DNA of 33,605 nucleotides. Origin: an uncultured Opitutales bacterium (GTDB lineage Bacteria > Verrucomicrobiota > Verrucomicrobiia > Opitutales > Oceanipulchritudinaceae). The notes beneath the pieces are model-generated. The model worked only from the letters and a program-made list of their open reading frames with translations. It searched no databases and was not told the origin of the DNA. This document shows, piece after piece, positions 17,090 through 33,605 of this stretch. Location: the NCBI GenBank assembly GCA_913056355.1, contig CAJXMX010000010.1:1-33605 (forward strand). Reading direction: 5' to 3'. The translations under genes and the position numbers were made by a program. Position 1 is the stretch's first letter. The number at the start of each line of letters is the position of its first letter.

Positions 17090-18979
17090 ATGGTCCCGAT
17101 GCGTCGCCATTACAAGAAGGCCCCGGAACGGCAGGACAACCCGGTCAACACCCGCATCTATTTGATGTACGTGGTCATCGGGATCTGCATGGTCGCCCTG
17201 CTCTGCGGGCTGGCCTACCGGCAGTTGATCCAGCAGGAAAGCTTTGCCGCCGCGGCCGAGCGGCAGAACTATCGCCGCATCCTGATGCCCGGCCCGCGGG
17301 GCATCATCTACGACCGCAAGGGGCGGGTCCTGGTGGGGAACCGTCCCCTCTTCTCGGCCGTGGTCTACCTCAACGAGCTGCGGACGGAGTTTCGCGAGGA
17401 GTACTTCAACCTGGTCCGCCGCCAGCGGGACCTCGGACTCAACCCGGACCGCTACGCGATGAACATCGAGGCCCGCCGGAACGTGGTCATGCGGTACATG
17501 AACCGGCTCAACTCCCTGCTGGAAGAGGAGTTCACGGTGGATTCGACCGACATCGAGCGTCACTTCTCCCAGTCCCTGCTGCTGCCCTTCCCCTTGATAA
17601 CGGACCTCAGCCCGGAGGATTACGCGATTCTCATCGAGCAGGTCCCGATCGATTCGCCGATCCAGATCATCTCCGGCAACGCCCGCTGGTATCCCTACGG
17701 GGAAGCCGCGGCCCACACCCTGGGATTCGTTTCCGACAGTACCGAGTTCCCCGAGGGAACCCTTCCCGGGGAAACCCTGCTGACTTTCCGCAACGAGGCC
17801 CAGGTCGGGCGCAGCGGACTGGAAAAGTCCTTCAACAACCACCTCCAGGGAACCACCGGCGGGGAAATCTGGTCCGTCGACCCGGGCGGATTCCAGCACG
17901 AACGGGTGGTTCACGAAGTCCCCAGCAAGGGGCAGGACCTGACCATCTCCCTGGACATCGACATCCAGCAGGCGGCGGAAGCGGCCATGGGCACCAAGAC
18001 CGGGGCGGTGGTGGCCATCGAGATTGAGACCGGCGAGGTCCTCGCCCTGGTCAGCAAACCGGCCTACGACCTGAACGACACGGCGCCCTACATCAGTTTT
18101 GAAGTGGACCGGGAGATCCGCGAAAAGGGCGCCTGGCTGAACCGGGCCATCCAGGGGCTCTATCCTCCGGGATCGACTTTCAAGCTGGTCACCGCCATGG
18201 CGTCCCTGCGCGCCGGGGCAGTGGACGAGAACACGATCGTTTACTGCCCGGGGTATTTCCAGGTCGGCCGGCGCCGGTTCCACTGTCACCGCCGGAGCGG
18301 ACACGGCGAGGAAAACCTGATCGGGGCCATTCGCGACAGCTGCAACGTTTTCTTCTACGACCGGGGGACGGAAATCGGGGTCTGGGCCATCGCCAATGAG
18401 GCCCGCCGTTTCCACCTGGACCGGAAGACCGGGATCGAGCTACCCGCGGAGACGGGCCGGATGCTGGTTCCGGATCCGGAATGGAAGGCCGCCCGCTTCT
18501 ACGGCGAGGGCTGGTTCGAGGGGGACACCGCCAACATGGCCATCGGCCAGGGTTTCCTGCTCCTGACGCCGCTCCAGATGGCCACCTTCGCGTCCTCCCT
18601 GGCCAGGGGGGTGGAATTCCTCCAGCCGACCCTCCTGCACGATGCAGGCGAAGCAGAGGTGGACAATCCCATTTCCCTGCGGCCGGAGCAGATGGCCCTG
18701 GTCCGTGAAGGCATGCGGCAGGCCGGGGAGCGAGGCACCGCCCGGCTGGCCGGCAATCCCAACATGCCGGTGGCCGGCAAGACCGGTACCGCCCAGGTCC
18801 GCAAGGACGGCCGCCCCACCACCCTGGCCTGGTTTGTCGGCTATGCCCCGGTCCAGAACCCCCGCATCGCGGTCGCGGTCATGGTCGAGGGAGTTCCCGA
18901 GGAGGAAACCAACTACGGGGGCGGCTCCACCGCGGCCCCCATCGCCAAGTCCGTATTCCAGCAGTATCTGGGGATGTAG
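17090..18979 (+). CDS. mrdA: Penicillin-binding protein 2, peptidoglycan transpeptidase
   Basis: This class B PBP has about 629 residues. An N-terminal TM anchor (about 25-43) precedes a PBP dimerisation domain (GPRGIIYDRKGRVLVGN onward) and a transpeptidase domain with STFK (catalytic Ser362), SCN (417-419) and KTGT (564-567). The FHCHRRSGHG segment before SCN is typical of PBP2 of the elongasome. It crosslinks new peptidoglycan during cell elongation. The ATG at 17090 leaves a 2-bp gap after mreD; a TTG at 17084 (TTGA overlap) and an ATG at 17099 are alternatives. rodA, often next in the operon, is absent: the next gene is convergent with only 9 bp between stops. Confidence 0.96.
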   Translation: MVPMRRHYKKAPERQDNPVNTRIYLMYVVIGICMVALLCGLAYRQLIQQESFAAAAERQNYRRILMPGPRGIIYDRKGRVLVGNRPLFSAVVYLNELRTEFREEYFNLVRRQRDLGLNPDRYAMNIEARRNVVMRYMNRLNSLLEEEFTVDSTDIERHFSQSLLLPFPLITDLSPEDYAILIEQVPIDSPIQIISGNARWYPYGEAAAHTLGFVSDSTEFPEGTLPGETLLTFRNEAQVGRSGLEKSFNNHLQGTTGGEIWSVDPGGFQHERVVHEVPSKGQDLTISLDIDIQQAAEAAMGTKTGAVVAIEIETGEVLALVSKPAYDLNDTAPYISFEVDREIREKGAWLNRAIQGLYPPGSTFKLVTAMASLRAGAVDENTIVYCPGYFQVGRRRFHCHRRSGHGEENLIGAIRDSCNVFFYDRGTEIGVWAIANEARRFHLDRKTGIELPAETGRMLVPDPEWKAARFYGEGWFEGDTANMAIGQGFLLLTPLQMATFASSLARGVEFLQPTLLHDAGEAEVDNPISLRPEQMALVREGMRQAGERGTARLAGNPNMPVAGKTGTAQVRKDGRPTTLAWFVGYAPVQNPRIAVAVMVEGVPEEETNYGGGSTAAPIAKSVFQQYLGM

Positions 18980-18986
18980 GGGTTGG

Positions 18987-19002
18987 GGTTACTGGTTGCG
19001 GG
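18987..19002. repeat. Short GGTTNCN heptamer repeat copy
   Basis: GGTTACTGGTTGCGGG at this position is identical over 16 bp to part of the heptamer array near the right end (33540-33555). It overlaps the 3' end and stop codon of the transglutaminase gene, so that gene's last residues come from repeat sequence. Confidence 0.7.
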
Positions 19003-21190
19003 CCTGCCCTGAGCTTGTCGAGGGAGCCTGTTTGCGGGCCTGGCGGAGGAGCTGATGCGGATTCTCCGGCCATGACTGCACCGGCCCGTAGCGAAGGAGC
19101 AGGAGCTGGTGGTGGTGGCGGTCCTCGGGAAACCGGCGCAGGGCCCGGAAAGCGAGGAGGCGGCCCGCCTTGTCGCGGATGATGGCTTCAAATCCCTTTT
19201 GCCGGGCCCAGCGGCGCAGCAGCAGGATCAGGAGGACAAGGAGCAGAACCGTGGTCAGGGGAAGCAGGTAATCCACCATGACACCGGCCCAGCGGGCGGG
19301 AATGTGGAATTCCCGGAGGTCCGCATCCAGTTTTTCCCGAAGCGACTTCCAGCGCTCCCTGAGCCAGCCCAGTCCCCCCCGGCCGGCCTCCTTGAGGGAC
19401 TCCGCCATCAGGGCCTGGTCCTGGCTGTCGAACTGGATGACCCGGCGGAACCAGAGGACGCGGAGGCTGTCCAGGTAGGCCTTCCAGGTGCGGTCCGGGA
19501 TCAGCCCGCCGGTGGCGAGGGCGGATTCCACGGTCCCGCCCGGGGAGCCCGGCGTGGGGTCGACCCGGATCCAGCCCTTGTCCTGGTCGTAGATTTCACA
19601 CCAGGCATGGGCGTTGCGGTTGCGGACCATGAAGTAATTCTCGAACCCGTTCCAGTCCCCGCCGGCGAATCCGGTCACCAGGCGGCTGGGGAATCCGGCG
19701 TAGCGGGCGACAAGGACAAAGGCCCCGGCGTAAAGCTCGCAGTGGCCCGGCTGGCCCGACTGGATCCAGCGCAGGACCGTGTCCGCCTCCCCTTCGGGAA
19801 TACGGCCCTCCAGGCTGTAGCCGCGGTCCCTGCGGAGGTAGTCGACCAGGCGTTCGGCATATTCCACCGCGGACTGGCGCGGAGAGAAACCGGAACGGCG
19901 CAGGGCCCGGTCGAGGATTTCCCGGTTGGCCGCCCCCGAGGGATAGGCCAGCAGGGTTTCCGGATAGGTGACCTCATCCAGATAGCCGGGATCCGCGGAT
20001 TCCACCTCGACGGGCTTCAGTCGGGTCAATTGAAAATCCATCGGGCCGAAAGGCAGGATCCCCCCGAAGCGGGCCCCTTCGTAGCGGATGGAAAGCGTGT
20101 TGGCATTGATTTCCCGGGTCAGGAAAACCCGCGTCAGGTCCTGGGCGATGAGGCCGGTCCGGTTGTTGAAACGGAGGGTTTTGAAGGTATCCGCCGAAGG
20201 CAGGTAGGCACTGATGCCGCCTTCCAGGTAGATGGTCCACTCCGAGTCATCGGGCTGGCCGCGCCCGTTCAGATCGTATCCGCTGAAGGCGTAATTCTGC
20301 AGGTAACGCTGGTTCCGGACCACGGCCGGCGAAACCCGGAATCCCCCGTCGTAGTAGGCATCCAGCACCACCATCCGCCAGTAGGGATGTGATGGGGGAT
20401 CCTGGCCGGTAACGTCCACCCGCATGGCGATGGAATCGTCGTTGAGGATGCTGACCACGTCCCCGTACTGGACGTTGTCGGAAAAGCCGCTCAGGCTCTG
20501 GTCGGTGCTCAGGCGGGGAAACGGCAGGGCGGCCCCGATGTCGAAACGCGGCATCAGGATGAAGAGGCCGAGGGCCATGCCGGTGGTGATAACGAATAGG
20601 ACCAGGCCGGCGGAGAGGGTGCGCCGGTCCAGGCGGGCCGAAGCATGCCGGAAGACAATTCCCCAGTTGGCCTTGGCAAAGACCGGTCCGTCCGGCGAAG
20701 CGCGGGGGCTTCCGTCTTCCCGGATCGACAGGTTGACCAGGAAGAGCTGGCTCATGGCCAGCGGGGCGTACAGCAGCAACTGGATGCCGAAGGTGATCTC
20801 CAGGCTGAGAACCCCGGTTATGACGAGAAGGAACATGGTCAGGAGCAGCTGCTGCAAATCCTCCCGCGGGGTGCGGATCTGCAGGGCCCGGAAAAGGGCC
20901 AGGAGGATGACCATCCGGAAGAGCGGGGGCAGGAAATCACTCCCGCTGCCCAGGAAATCCGCCCCGATGACCAGCAGGAGCAGGATCGGGGCATACTTCC
21001 AGAAGGCGGCCGGGACCCGCTCAAACAGGGAGGGAAGGACACAGGTCAGCGCGGTCAGGGCAAGGCTGGCCAGGATCAGGCCGTCGGCTCCCAGGTCGAG
21101 GGCGAATCCCCCGGACAGGCTGACCATGAACATCAACTGGCCCAGGAGCCAGCGCAGGGCGGCCAGTTCGCGCTGCTTAAGCCTGTCCAA
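18989..21190 (-). CDS. TgpA-type membrane transglutaminase (DUF3488)
   Basis: This 733-residue protein has an N-terminal multi-TM DUF3488-like region (about 10-215) and a periplasmic part holding the transglutaminase-like core. The catalytic triad is Cys484 in GHCELYAG, His528 in NRNAHAWCEIY and Asp544 in VDPTPG. A final TM (about 645-665, LLPLTTVLLLVLLILLL) and a cytoplasmic tail follow. Characterised TgpA is an essential periplasmic transglutaminase, but its substrates are unknown. The start is TTG at 21190, supported by a strong ribosome binding site. It overlaps the DUF58 gene by 14 bp, the usual partner. The last 17 or so residues derive from repeat DNA and are probably dispensable. Confidence 0.92.
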   Translation of the reverse strand: MDRLKQRELAALRWLLGQLMFMVSLSGGFALDLGADGLILASLALTALTCVLPSLFERVPAAFWKYAPILLLLVIGADFLGSGSDFLPPLFRMVILLALFRALQIRTPREDLQQLLLTMFLLVITGVLSLEITFGIQLLLYAPLAMSQLFLVNLSIREDGSPRASPDGPVFAKANWGIVFRHASARLDRRTLSAGLVLFVITTGMALGLFILMPRFDIGAALPFPRLSTDQSLSGFSDNVQYGDVVSILNDDSIAMRVDVTGQDPPSHPYWRMVVLDAYYDGGFRVSPAVVRNQRYLQNYAFSGYDLNGRGQPDDSEWTIYLEGGISAYLPSADTFKTLRFNNRTGLIAQDLTRVFLTREINANTLSIRYEGARFGGILPFGPMDFQLTRLKPVEVESADPGYLDEVTYPETLLAYPSGAANREILDRALRRSGFSPRQSAVEYAERLVDYLRRDRGYSLEGRIPEGEADTVLRWIQSGQPGHCELYAGAFVLVARYAGFPSRLVTGFAGGDWNGFENYFMVRNRNAHAWCEIYDQDKGWIRVDPTPGSPGGTVESALATGGLIPDRTWKAYLDSLRVLWFRRVIQFDSQDQALMAESLKEAGRGGLGWLRERWKSLREKLDADLREFHIPARWAGVMVDYLLPLTTVLLLVLLILLLRRWARQKGFEAIIRDKAGRLLAFRALRRFPEDRHHHQLLLLRYGPVQSWPENPHQLLRQARKQAPSTSSGQARNQ
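18992..19042. repeat. CCCTGAGCTTGTCGAGGG element inside a 36-bp direct duplication
   Basis: Two 15-bp copies (CTGGTTGCGGGCCTG at 18992-19006 and CTGTTTGCGGGCCTG at 19028-19042, 14 of 15 identical) flank a 21-bp block. The block contains the imperfect palindrome CCCTGAGCTTGTCGAGGG (19007-19024). This core is a short repeat seen in intergenic DNA of many unrelated bacteria. The period is 36 bp, so the transglutaminase frame is kept and the protein ends QARKQAPSTSSGQARNQ. Confidence 0.75.
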
Positions 21191-30307: not shown

Positions 30308-32470
30308 ATGCATGCCTCGGGCAAGCCGGGATTCGCCCTCCCCTTTTCCCTCGTCATGGCCGGATCCATCCTGGTCCTGGCCGTGCTGGTCCTGCAGCAG
30401 GCTGAGTTTGCCCGCTCCATTTCCGAGCGCCGGCGGCTCCACCGGCAGGCCCGGGAAACCCTCCTGGCCCAGGTCCAGCCCCTGGGGCGAAGACTCTCCC
30501 GGGAGGTCCTGCAGGACCGGTCCACCTCCGCCATCCGGAGAATCGGCGACGGACCGGGGAACGAGTTCCTTCCGCTCCTGCTCACGGACACCGGGGAGGA
30601 GGCGCTCCTGGCCTCCGTGGCTTCCGGAACGGATGTAGTGAATTTCCAATCACCGGTTTCCGGGGGAAGATTGCGCGCCGGATGGATCCGCATCTCCCCG
30701 GACAGCCTGGATTACGCGCTGGACCTGGCCTGGGCGGCGGAAGACGTCGCACTGGCGGCCGGACGCAACTCCCCGCCCGCATCCTGGCCTTTGCCCTCCT
30801 GGTACCTGGGCTTGCGGAAGGAAAACGCAGGCCTGGATTCATTCCTCTCCTCCGCGGCAGGGGCGGACTGGGACCAGCTGCCCTGGATAACCGCCGGAAA
30901 CCCGCTCCCCTTCTCCCCGGAGCTGAGCCCTTCCCTGGTGCCCGTCCCGCGCCGGCTGGCCCTCCACTTCGGGATTTTCGCCAGCGGTGCCATGGGCAGC
31001 CGGGAAAAGGTGATCCGCATCCGCTATTACCTGTCCGGGACCCTGTGGAATCCCTACAACCGGCCCCTGGCCCTGCACAACGGCGGCGGCCTCCGGCCGG
31101 TCACCCGGATGGTGCTCCGCAACCTCCCGGAAGTGCGTATCCACAATCTCACTCGCGGCTATTCGACCGGCTGGATTCCCCTTGACGAGGTCGTCAACGA
31201 CCAGACCGGTGAGGCGGGGATCCGCGGATGGATCCGCCTGCCGGGCACCCTCCGGGCGGGGGACAATTATGCCTTTGTGGAGCCGGATCCGGGTAGCCAG
31301 CCGGAAGGACTGGCCCGGACGGTGCATCCGGCCTTCCAGGTCGGTCCGGCCGATGCGGTGGAAATTGAATTTCGTTCCCGGCCCGGAGGCGTGGACCTGG
31401 CACTGGTGGACCTGGATGTTGCGGATCCTGGGGAGGCGGCCACGGCAGGACTGGGCTGGTTCCGGCTGGAACGATTCCCGGTCGAGTTTCCGCTCCTTGA
31501 ATTTCCGCGGGCCGACGAGGGCGGACAGCCCTTCTACCTCGCCGGGGGCAGCCTGGCCTTTCGCCGGGAGCACTGCCAGGCGGCCCTCGTCTTTGCCCGG
31601 AACGGCCTCCCGGGCGTGCCGGAGCTGGATCCCCGCCGCCGGTCGGTTGCCGCTGACGCCGTTTACCCGACCGCCTCAGGGGGCTCGCTAAGCGGCACGG
31701 AGCTGGTCGCCGCCGCCTGCCTGCTTCCTTCCGGAACTTCGGATACCGATCCCGCTGCTCCCGCAATGCAGGCGCTGTTTTCCTGGCCGGAGGAACGTCC
31801 GGAGGGACTCCTCACGGCCAGTGACCTACCCGGCTGGAGGGAGGCCTTTCGCCTGGGTGCGGCCGGGGCAAAGGAGCACAACGCCTTGTTGGACCGCTCT
31901 CCCATGCCGCCGCTGAGGCCGGATTCCGATGACTTCTCCCCCGAGCCGGTTCCCGGCTGGAAGTATGAGGAGCGGTTCCCGGTGAACCTGGTGGGGGCAA
32001 CCGCCTGGCAAGCCTTGCTGGAGCGCTCGGCTTCGACGGATCCCGTCACGGGTGCCCTCCGCTTCCCGGCCTTCATGCAGGTGGATCCGGCCCGGCCGGA
32101 GGATTTCCGAAGCTGGTCAAAAACCCGGCTGCGCCTGGCAGCGGAGAAGCTGGCCGGGGATATCGGGCTCGATCCTGCAAAATCGGTGACGGACTTTTTC
32201 AACCGGGGACGTCTGGCAACCGCGTTTGCCTCGACGGGTCCGGGGGCCGCCATCGACCAGCTGCTCCCGTTTCGGGGCTGGCTGCGTAACTCCCCCCTTC
32301 CGGGTCCTCATGGAAGCGCCTGGATCCTGCACCTCGCCGTCCGGTTGACCCGGGAACGGGGCAGTTCGCTTATCCCGGCCCGGGCCTGGCTGCTGGAAAC
32401 GCCGGAAGGCTTCTCCGTTGTCCGGTTCGAGTGGACCGATCCGGCAACCGGACTCACTTCGCCGTACTGA
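30308..32470 (+). CDS. Large pilin-like protein, Verru_Chthon cassette protein A-like
   Basis: This 720-residue protein has an N-terminal prepilin-like segment (GFALPFSLVMAGSILVLAVLVLQQAEFARS, residues 8-37) and then a charged helix. A long extracytoplasmic domain follows with LSGTLWNPYNRPL, a motif I associate with Verru_Chthon cassette protein A. It lacks the Glu5 of classical type IV pilins and is shorter than typical protein A members. No partner cassette genes (B, C, D) or pilus assembly genes are adjacent. It is probably a membrane-anchored, secreted pseudopilin-like protein; a PilX/PilK-like minor pilin is an alternative. Its last 17 bp overlap the convergent dinB 3' end. Confidence 0.5.
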   Translation: MHASGKPGFALPFSLVMAGSILVLAVLVLQQAEFARSISERRRLHRQARETLLAQVQPLGRRLSREVLQDRSTSAIRRIGDGPGNEFLPLLLTDTGEEALLASVASGTDVVNFQSPVSGGRLRAGWIRISPDSLDYALDLAWAAEDVALAAGRNSPPASWPLPSWYLGLRKENAGLDSFLSSAAGADWDQLPWITAGNPLPFSPELSPSLVPVPRRLALHFGIFASGAMGSREKVIRIRYYLSGTLWNPYNRPLALHNGGGLRPVTRMVLRNLPEVRIHNLTRGYSTGWIPLDEVVNDQTGEAGIRGWIRLPGTLRAGDNYAFVEPDPGSQPEGLARTVHPAFQVGPADAVEIEFRSRPGGVDLALVDLDVADPGEAATAGLGWFRLERFPVEFPLLEFPRADEGGQPFYLAGGSLAFRREHCQAALVFARNGLPGVPELDPRRRSVAADAVYPTASGGSLSGTELVAAACLLPSGTSDTDPAAPAMQALFSWPEERPEGLLTASDLPGWREAFRLGAAGAKEHNALLDRSPMPPLRPDSDDFSPEPVPGWKYEERFPVNLVGATAWQALLERSASTDPVTGALRFPAFMQVDPARPEDFRSWSKTRLRLAAEKLAGDIGLDPAKSVTDFFNRGRLATAFASTGPGAAIDQLLPFRGWLRNSPLPGPHGSAWILHLAVRLTRERGSSLIPARAWLLETPEGFSVVRFEWTDPATGLTSPY

Positions 32471-33503
32471 ACAGCTCCAGCTGGCCGGAGTCGTCCGCTT
32501 CCGGGAAGCGCACCCCGACGCCGATCAGGCGTACCGCATGCGGACTGCGGGAGAAGGCCTCCTCCAGCAGCCCGGCGAAGTTTTCCGGCTGCAGGTCGAT
32601 CCCGCTGCGCTCCCGGGTGGTCTGCTGGAAGTTGGAGAACTTCAACTTGACCAGGATCTTGTTGAACGGCTTCGGCTCCTTGCGCTTTTCCAGGTCGCCC
32701 CGAAGCTCCTTCAGGAGCGCCGGCAATTCCTGCAGGCAACTCTCCAGATCCGGCAAATCGCGGGAAAAGGTGCGCTCCACGCTCATGCTCTTGCGTTCCC
32801 GCACCGGCTCCACCGGCCGGTCGTCCTCACCCCGGCAGCGGGCATACAGTTCCATGGCCCGGCTGGGACCGAGCCAGTGCTCGAGCTCGTTGATGGGGAT
32901 CTCCTGCAGTTGCCCGCAGGTCTCGATTCCCTTGCCCCGGAACAGTTCCTCGGCCCGGGGGCCGACTCCGGGTATGCGCCGCAGGGGCAGGTCCTTCATG
33001 AAGGACTCCACATCCTCGGGAAGGACCGCAAACTGACCGTTCGGCTTGCGCCAGTCGCTGGCAATCTTGGCCAGCATCTTGTTGGGCGCGATCCCGGCGC
33101 TGGCCGTCAGCTGCGTCTCCCGGAAAATCTCCTTCCGGATCTCCCTCGCGATGTCGTAGGCGTACCGCTTGTGGTGCGAAACATCTAGGTAGGCCTCGTC
33201 CAGGGAAAGCGGCTCCACCAGCTCCGTGTAACGGGAGAAGATCTTCCGGATACGCCGGGATTCCCGGCGGTAGACATCGAAACGGACCGGTTTCAGCACC
33301 AGGTGAGGACACAGCTCCAGCGCCTTGAAAACCGGCATCGCCGAGCGGCAGCCGTACTCCCGGGCCACATAGTTGCAGGTCGTCAGGACCCCGCGCGGAC
33401 CGCTGCCGCCGACGCCCACCGGCTTGTCGGCGATGGACGGATCGTCCCGGCACTCGATCGCCGCATAGAACGAGTCCATGTCAATGTGGATGATCTTGCG
33501 CAC
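32454..33503 (-). CDS. dinB: DNA polymerase IV (Y family)
   Basis: This 349-residue translesion polymerase has IIHIDMDSFYAAIE (4-17, first catalytic Asp), the YVAREYG segment, PLSLDEAYLDVS (catalytic DE), the GIAPNKMLAKIASDWRKPNG block, an HhH region (RRIPGVGPRAEELF) and the little-finger domain. The C-terminal QLELF close to the end is a beta-clamp binding motif. The start is GTG at 33503, giving the usual MRKIIHIDMD opening, with no visible Shine-Dalgarno site. The heptamer array lies within 10 bp upstream of this start, so any promoter must overlap or lie beyond the repeat. Confidence 0.97.
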   Translation of the reverse strand: MRKIIHIDMDSFYAAIECRDDPSIADKPVGVGGSGPRGVLTTCNYVAREYGCRSAMPVFKALELCPHLVLKPVRFDVYRRESRRIRKIFSRYTELVEPLSLDEAYLDVSHHKRYAYDIAREIRKEIFRETQLTASAGIAPNKMLAKIASDWRKPNGQFAVLPEDVESFMKDLPLRRIPGVGPRAEELFRGKGIETCGQLQEIPINELEHWLGPSRAMELYARCRGEDDRPVEPVRERKSMSVERTFSRDLPDLESCLQELPALLKELRGDLEKRKEPKPFNKILVKLKFSNFQQTTRERSGIDLQPENFAGLLEEAFSRSPHAVRLIGVGVRFPEADDSGQLELFSTAK

Positions 33504-33511
33504 GGGATTTC

Positions 33512-33574
33512 GGTTACTGGTTGCTGGTTTCTGGTTCCAGGTTACTGGTTGCGGGTTGCGGGTTGCGGGTTGGA
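33512..33574. repeat. Array of nine GGTTNNN heptamers
   Basis: Nine units in exact 7-bp register read GGTTACT, GGTTGCT, GGTTTCT, GGTTCCA, GGTTACT, GGTTGCG (three times) and GGTTGGA. The first four bases are invariant and the last three vary. It lies directly upstream of dinB. It resembles the heptanucleotide STRR arrays known from cyanobacteria in form, not in sequence. There are no spacers, so it is not a CRISPR. Confidence 0.9.
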
Positions 33575-33596
33575 ATGAAGGATTCCAATGAGATTT

Positions 33597-33605
33597 AGAT
33601 CGGAA
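33597..33605 (+). other. Possible sequencing-adapter remnant at the window end
   Basis: The last nine bases, AGATCGGAA, equal the first nine of the common Illumina TruSeq adapter. If the window is a whole contig, these bases may not be genomic. A chance match cannot be excluded. Confidence 0.4.

Follow-up and report, generated by a model that had tools for sequence, protein, structure and literature searches.

The heptamer array beside dinB in this uncultured Opitutales bacterium is one member of a dispersed repeat family with the consensus GGTTDCK, which shares its genome with a second family, GGACDAA. On balance, we favor the explanation that GGTTDCK is a lineage-specific dispersed satellite, resized by slippage and tolerated at the edges of open reading frames (ORFs), and not a dedicated mutator switch of dinB. 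The dispersal of the arrays, their consensus, position and polarity, their absence from the examined relatives, and the lack of a larger common element were observed directly. In general terms, the dinB array is a dispersed, ORF-abutting heptamer repeat, a kind of element that is already known and poorly understood.

The array upstream of dinB

The window, i.e., the whole stretch of DNA analyzed (33,605 nucleotides), is the entire contig C10 of the genome under study (G000, 4.31 Mb). Near its end, dinB, encoding DNA polymerase IV with a GTG start, occupies positions 32454–33503 of the minus strand, as identified from its translation, NCBIfam NF002677 (429 bits, cut-off 256), and Pfam IMS domains. 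A gap of 8 bp (33504–33511) separates the start codon from the array (33512–33574), whose GG strand is the plus strand, antisense to dinB. Nine GGTT cores follow each other in perfect 7-bp register (33512–33571), and three trailing bases extend the array to 33574. Seven overlapping three-core matches were counted in the window, compared to none in 100 dinucleotide shuffles.

The last three bases of the units read, in order, ACT, GCT, TCT, CCA, ACT, GCG, GCG, GCG, and GGA. The nine units that the earlier note had described as GGTTNNN therefore hold as far as the in-register cores are concerned, but the last three bases do not vary freely: eight of the nine units carry C at position 6, and the GGA after the ninth core is flank. 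No Shine-Dalgarno-like sequence was found 4–20 bases before the dinB start. The dinB messenger, if it reaches that far, would carry AGTAACC-like units up to 8 bases before the start.

The 16-mer GGTTACTGGTTGCGGG, located at 33540–33555 within the array, is present a second time at 18987–19002 (plus strand), as had been noted before. This two-core stretch of the GGTT family starts 7 bp after the stop of a plus-strand gene ending at 18979, and a TAA within it (18989–18991 on the minus strand) is the stop of a transglutaminase-like minus-strand ORF (18989–21190).

Two heptamer families in one genome

The four-core GGTT pattern gave 101 overlapping matches in G000, and its reversed control gave none. 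Arrays of at least four cores number 29, are spread over 23 contigs, and reach up to 15 units. The dispersed family postulated in the earlier note is thereby confirmed; the array does not occur only here, and the 7-bp register is kept genome-wide. The DNA read for the following analyses (1.63 Mb) comprised the window, 22 array-bearing stretches, and 78 comparison stretches, each up to 20 kb, the comparison stretches being drawn from contigs C1–C83 without a four-core match; these 78 held a single three-core array (L260). Just five of the 29 arrays lie in the 83 largest contigs, roughly 1.9 Mb (C3, C8, C10, C22, and C51), so that either arrays break the assembly or their density truly differs.

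To avoid a bias imposed by the search, unit composition was determined from interior units, i.e., those between two in-register cores, whatever their content. Among 137 interior GGTT units, positions 1–4 and 6 agree in 127–135, position 5 is occupied by A (64), G (48), T (20), or C (5), and position 7 by T (78), G (55), C (2), or A (2). The family consensus is GGTTDCK. With the cut-off at three units, the commonest array size is four units (9 of 31). Runs of identical units and alternating pairs with a period of 14 occur within arrays, which led us to suspect slippage.

The second family, absent from the earlier note, was revealed by running Tandem Repeats Finder on the same DNA with no preset motif. 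In this sample, which is enriched in array contigs, 79 intergenic arrays were found, 53 of them with a period of 7, 14, or 21; in 400 kb of the same-genus genome G002, none of nine arrays had period 7. Three-unit GGACNAA matches amount to 155 genome-wide in G000, with an empty reversed control, and none occurs among 18 relatives. The 121 interior GGAC units vary chiefly at position 5 (T 56, G 42, A 22, and C 1); additionally, position 1 is A or T instead of G in 22 of them. Three units is the commonest size (12 of 34, with the cut-off at three units). Examples are the arrays at L064:1594–1656, L277:2609–2678, and L251:18014–18083 of G000.

Foreign contigs were considered as a source of the arrays and rejected: in G+C content (0.599–0.642) and tetranucleotide distance, the 23 array stretches do not leave the range spanned by 7-kb pieces from the 78 other stretches, a comparison that a mixed bin of close relatives would pass too. 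Similarly, a larger repeated element or MITE around the arrays was ruled out. A first comparison of flanks gave 265 matching pairs, judged by eye to be mostly arrays in the flanks; after masking of the arrays, seven short matches and no larger common element were left. Of the seven, three contain the repeat CCTGAGCCTGTCGAAGGG or its complement and one repeats such a row; the others are the end of a tRNA, a similarity in coding sequence, and a 22-bp repeat.

A separate dispersed repeat, CCTGAGC(C/T)TGTCGAAGGG, has 19 sites in the genome at no more than one mismatch. It follows three GGTT arrays, lying 3′ of their G strand (L069:4183–4200; L075:2721–2738 and 2751–2768; L060:2344–2361), and a variant is located at 19008–19024 of the window, after the two-core stretch.

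Position and polarity at gene edges

Genes were called with a simple dicodon model (coding fraction 0.91), which gives approximate starts and misses small genes. Outside predicted ORFs (<80% overlap) lie 26 of 31 GGTT arrays of at least three cores and 29 of 34 GGAC arrays, although 91% of the DNA read was called coding. The GGTT set includes five arrays in predicted ORFs, three with partial overlap, and two without a neighbor; the corresponding numbers for GGAC are five, four, and six. The eight arrays with a missing neighbor were left out of the polarity count.

Of the arrays with two known neighbors, 19 of 24 in the GGTT family and 21 of 23 in the GGAC family have their 5′ end, as read on the GG strand, closer to an ORF than their 3′ end. 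For both families jointly, 40 of 47 are nearer on the 5′ side (sign test, 1e-6), whichever way the gene runs; several arrays share one intergenic region, so these counts are not all independent. The intergenic location and the orientation bias that had been named for checking in the GGTT family were thus both found. Median distances to the ORF on the 5′ and 3′ side are 10.5 vs. 80 bp for GGTT and 7 vs. 101 bp for GGAC. The 5′ end falls within 10 bp of an ORF in 25 of 47 arrays, compared to 9.3 under random placement in the same gaps (largest value 18 in 5000 draws).

The edge on the 5′ side is a start codon in 21 of 24 GGTT arrays; among GGAC arrays, stops (14) outnumber starts (9). Neighboring array pairs less than 600 bp apart are convergent (+,−) in nine cases, same-strand in four, and (−,+) in none, the convergent pairing being a consequence of the polarity rule. 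At L063, the distance of 327 bp is too large because the gene caller missed a small gene: a conserved stretch between the called genes resembles, on inspection by eye, a gene for ribosomal protein L32.

In other lineages, the same 5′-edge polarity is suggestive only. Among the matches listed, and with crude gene calls, 31 of 49 arrays are nearer on the 5′ side (p 0.085), and within 50 bp of an ORF the count, again among the matches listed, is 30 on the 5′ side vs. 11 on the 3′ side. The sample consisted of 84 arrays at 80 loci of at least 119 stretches, with 13 arrays in ORFs and 22 dropped because a neighbor was missing.

Host genes and translation

Of the fourteen GGTT-adjacent starts, ten other than that of dinB were checked; their genes belong to ten different families, mostly of metabolism and housekeeping: YchF GTPase, two pyruvate-dehydrogenase-type subunits, a beta-CASP nuclease, glucuronate isomerase, a PfkB kinase, saccharopine dehydrogenase, DUF5069, an ABC ATPase, and YebC. 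Furthermore, when the 200 bp preceding dinB were searched in 11 other genomes (12 loci), among them the same-genus genomes G001–G003, no two-core GGTT match was found. The special link to dinB suggested by the earlier note is not upheld by these results; as far as the evidence goes, the association is incidental, and dinB is one more of a mixed set of host genes.

Arrays lie within 20 bp of 19 starts (14 GGTT and 5 GGAC). None of these starts has a Shine-Dalgarno-like sequence, compared to 26.6% of 1220 other genes with any form of it (shuffled, 16%). For 20 GGTT arrays of at least five units, the mean RNA folding energy is −0.02 kcal/mol per base for the C strand and −0.25 for the G strand. 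These values bear on a regulatory explanation that we consider rather unlikely, in which the C-rich strand, (MGHAACC)n, would take the place of the Shine-Dalgarno sequence in the leader and would be bound by an RNA-binding protein or S1, setting the expression of a regulon. It would agree with the start codons beside most GGTT arrays, with the difference in Shine-Dalgarno frequency, and with the unstructured C strand, and the same placement is reported for TAACTGA repeats (PMC4679880). However, GGAC arrays abut stops oftener than starts with the same polarity, and the ten host genes have no common function. The missing Shine-Dalgarno sequences, moreover, follow from the array filling the space, and such sequences are rare genome-wide (strong form, 12% of the 1220 genes; shuffled, 4.3%).

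Given a nearly unstructured C strand and scarce Shine-Dalgarno sequences, arrays before starts would be easily tolerated, with room for a mild translational effect.

Relatives and wider distribution

Neither a four-core GGTT nor a three-unit GGAC match was found in G001–G003, which are 84 to 99% complete. In G002, dinB directly follows glgC; glgC was sought in G000 to place the missing side upstream of dinB and was not found, an empty search that by itself shows nothing. When 55 arrays were compared with 800 kb of G002, both neighbors lay side by side, besides dinB, only at L063, L067, and L072. The counterparts of L063 and L072 align through the site and that of L067 keeps both neighbors, and no array of three cores is present at any of the three. 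The counterpart of L072 holds one two-core GGTTTTCGGTT, possibly an older or decayed array.

In place of the L063 array (L063:2698–2739), G002 has approximately 40 bp of different sequence surrounding a stop codon; in G000, the array supplies the stop of the neighboring gene together with several extra C-terminal residues relative to the G002 orthologue. This locus looks more like local growth than clean insertion.

Of 387 genomes sampled from the phylum, 16 hold GGTTDCK arrays; G000 is one of these and the sole bearer from its own class. The motif is also found in genomes outside the phylum; eight genomes were picked since their arrays looked alike, and seven of eight among them is therefore no frequency. 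The looser GGTTNNN pattern occurs in eight of 55 relatives up to order level, again including G000, often with other units. The reversed control, empty in G000, is not empty in several phylum and relative genomes because other heptamers of that form exist. In G146, G239, and G082, it matches tens of times, pointing to other GGKCDTT heptamer families there.

Origin and maintenance of the arrays

In the explanation that we favor, arrays would be seeded at ORF edges, and replication slippage would lengthen or shorten them in steps of 7 (and 14) bp. Selection would act as a filter and keep arrays where coding sequence is undamaged. At starts, the transcript would carry a nearly unstructured C-rich strand where a Shine-Dalgarno sequence would be, a leader presumably tolerated in a genome with few Shine-Dalgarno genes and perhaps able to tune translation a little. 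The array upstream of dinB would form the near leader of the messenger.

Several observations weigh against this explanation. Slippage adds copies inside an array and leaves the 5′ edge against starts and stops unexplained. Random mutation would blur all seven positions alike, but the variation is concentrated at positions 5 and 7, which points to recognition of the sequence or to a limited number of founder units. In addition, of 65 arrays, 10 are located inside predicted ORFs and another seven extend partly into one, and the two-core stretch in the G002 counterpart of L072 may be what is left of an array.

The fixed polarity at starts and stops alike and the position-specific conservation would be accommodated by mobile dispersal, in which units are copied or inserted at ORF edges, always in one orientation, by an enzyme that recognizes the heptamer, making the arrays a minimal mobile element. 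The patchy occurrence of GGTTDCK within and outside the phylum and the lack of a larger element around the arrays after masking fit this idea as well. We nevertheless regard it as quite improbable: the enzyme is purely hypothetical, and L063 suggests local growth from existing sequence over clean insertion. Y1 (REP-type) transposases were examined as the agent and rejected, as 13 of 19 genomes have them, irrespective of arrays (six in G000, one to three in same-genus genomes without arrays, and 133 in G008, which has one four-core match).

Comparison with known heptamer repeats

The earlier note had pointed to comparable heptanucleotide arrays in cyanobacteria. Such a precedent exists in Nostoc, but the distribution is wider and includes Xanthomonas, Beggiatoaceae, Bacteroidetes, Geobacter, and Chloroflexus. 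In the titles and abstract openings of the open-licence literature, no description of GGTTDCK or GGACDAA arrays was found.

The closest counterparts are the GGGAATC/GGGGAYT heptamers of Xanthomonas campestris, X. axonopodis, and Nostoc PCC7120 (Rehm, 2015; PMC4692102). These GGGNATC repeats lie on average 28 nt from an ORF at the 5′ end of the G strand vs. 160 nt at the other end, four units are preferred, 83% of the sites are common to the two Xanthomonas, and a G-quadruplex role is proposed. As in Xanthomonas, the GGTT family has a G-rich unit of seven bases with positions 1–4 and 6 conserved and 5 and 7 variable; the GGAC family departs from this rule, varying mainly at position 5 and in some units at position 1. 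The repeats described there and the arrays in G000 are alike in being dispersed and intergenic, with the 5′ side of the G strand nearer to an ORF of either direction, convergent pairs, and neighboring genes without a common function. They differ in the core (GGGA there, GGTT or GGAC here) and in the coexistence of two families in one genome here. Unlike the Xanthomonas sites, the few sites compared here are not common to the same-genus genome, a kinship that may be more distant than that of the Xanthomonas pair.

Based on this shared architecture, polarity, and convergent pairing, arrays might be kept because the G-rich strand folds into a quadruplex that acts on transcription, translation, or genome stability, and two-tier G2 motifs are indeed present in 30 of 31 GGTT and 26 of 34 GGAC arrays. 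We hold this to be very improbable. Four GGG tracts occur in only six of 31 GGTT and none of 34 GGAC arrays, since a third G is available only where the variable position 7 supplies it; it is not conserved here as it is in GGGNATC, and three-tier quadruplexes are mostly impossible. These counts rule out the three-tier quadruplex as a conserved feature, so that the arrays are not filed under a quadruplex-forming family, and argue against it as the common cause.

TAACTGA direct repeats of marine Beggiatoaceae, cyanobacteria, and Bacteroidetes, for which translational regulation has been proposed in Beggiatoaceae (MacGregor, 2015; PMC4679880), resemble the present arrays in lying a few bases upstream of starts, mostly in one orientation and usually without a ribosome-binding site, and in their patchy occurrence over phyla. 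There, however, one defined unit is described, and related heptamers rarely occur as direct repeats; here, units are degenerate, form two families, and are also found at stop codons, chiefly in the case of GGAC. Dispersed heptamer arrays are likewise represented by the GGGACCG elements of Geobacter metallireducens (49 sites; PMC2700814) and the (GATAGRA)n satellites of Chloroflexus aurantiacus (PMC6749651). Unlike the arrays in G000, the Geobacter elements are described as four repeats lying both within and between genes.

In GGTTDCK, GGACDAA, and GGGANTN alike, a fixed core of four bases beginning with GG precedes a fifth base that varies, and the GG strand has its 5′ end against an ORF edge. 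It is a long shot, to which we give little credence, that one common process recognizes the core in these distant lineages and seeds or extends arrays at gene boundaries with fixed polarity; if true, it would amount to a minimal repeat system, mobile or templated, in which cores can be exchanged. The positional rule of Xanthomonas and Nostoc is extended here to a further lineage, in which two families coexist and both follow it. This genome, with its two families and its array-free relatives in the same genus, is a good place to ask how arrays are born and what maintains their single polarity at gene edges.

The contig end

Beyond the dinB array, positions 33575–33596 (plus strand) are probable genomic flank and all that is known of it. 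The final nine bases of the window, AGATCGGAA (33597–33605, plus strand), resemble what we take to be the start of an Illumina adapter, and are probably a remnant of it; if so, just 22 genomic bases are known past the array. Within the DNA read, the 9-mer has 17 occurrences, most of them contig-internal; the 13-mer AGATCGGAAGAGC has five in the assembly, two of which lie no more than 55 bases from a contig start. The adapter reading is based on the place of AGATCGGAA at the very end of the contig and of AGATCGGAAGAGC near contig starts, and not on the count of AGATCGGAA. Probable remnants of the AGATCGGAAGAGC type are located near contig ends at C43:9–21 and C173:41–53 of G000.
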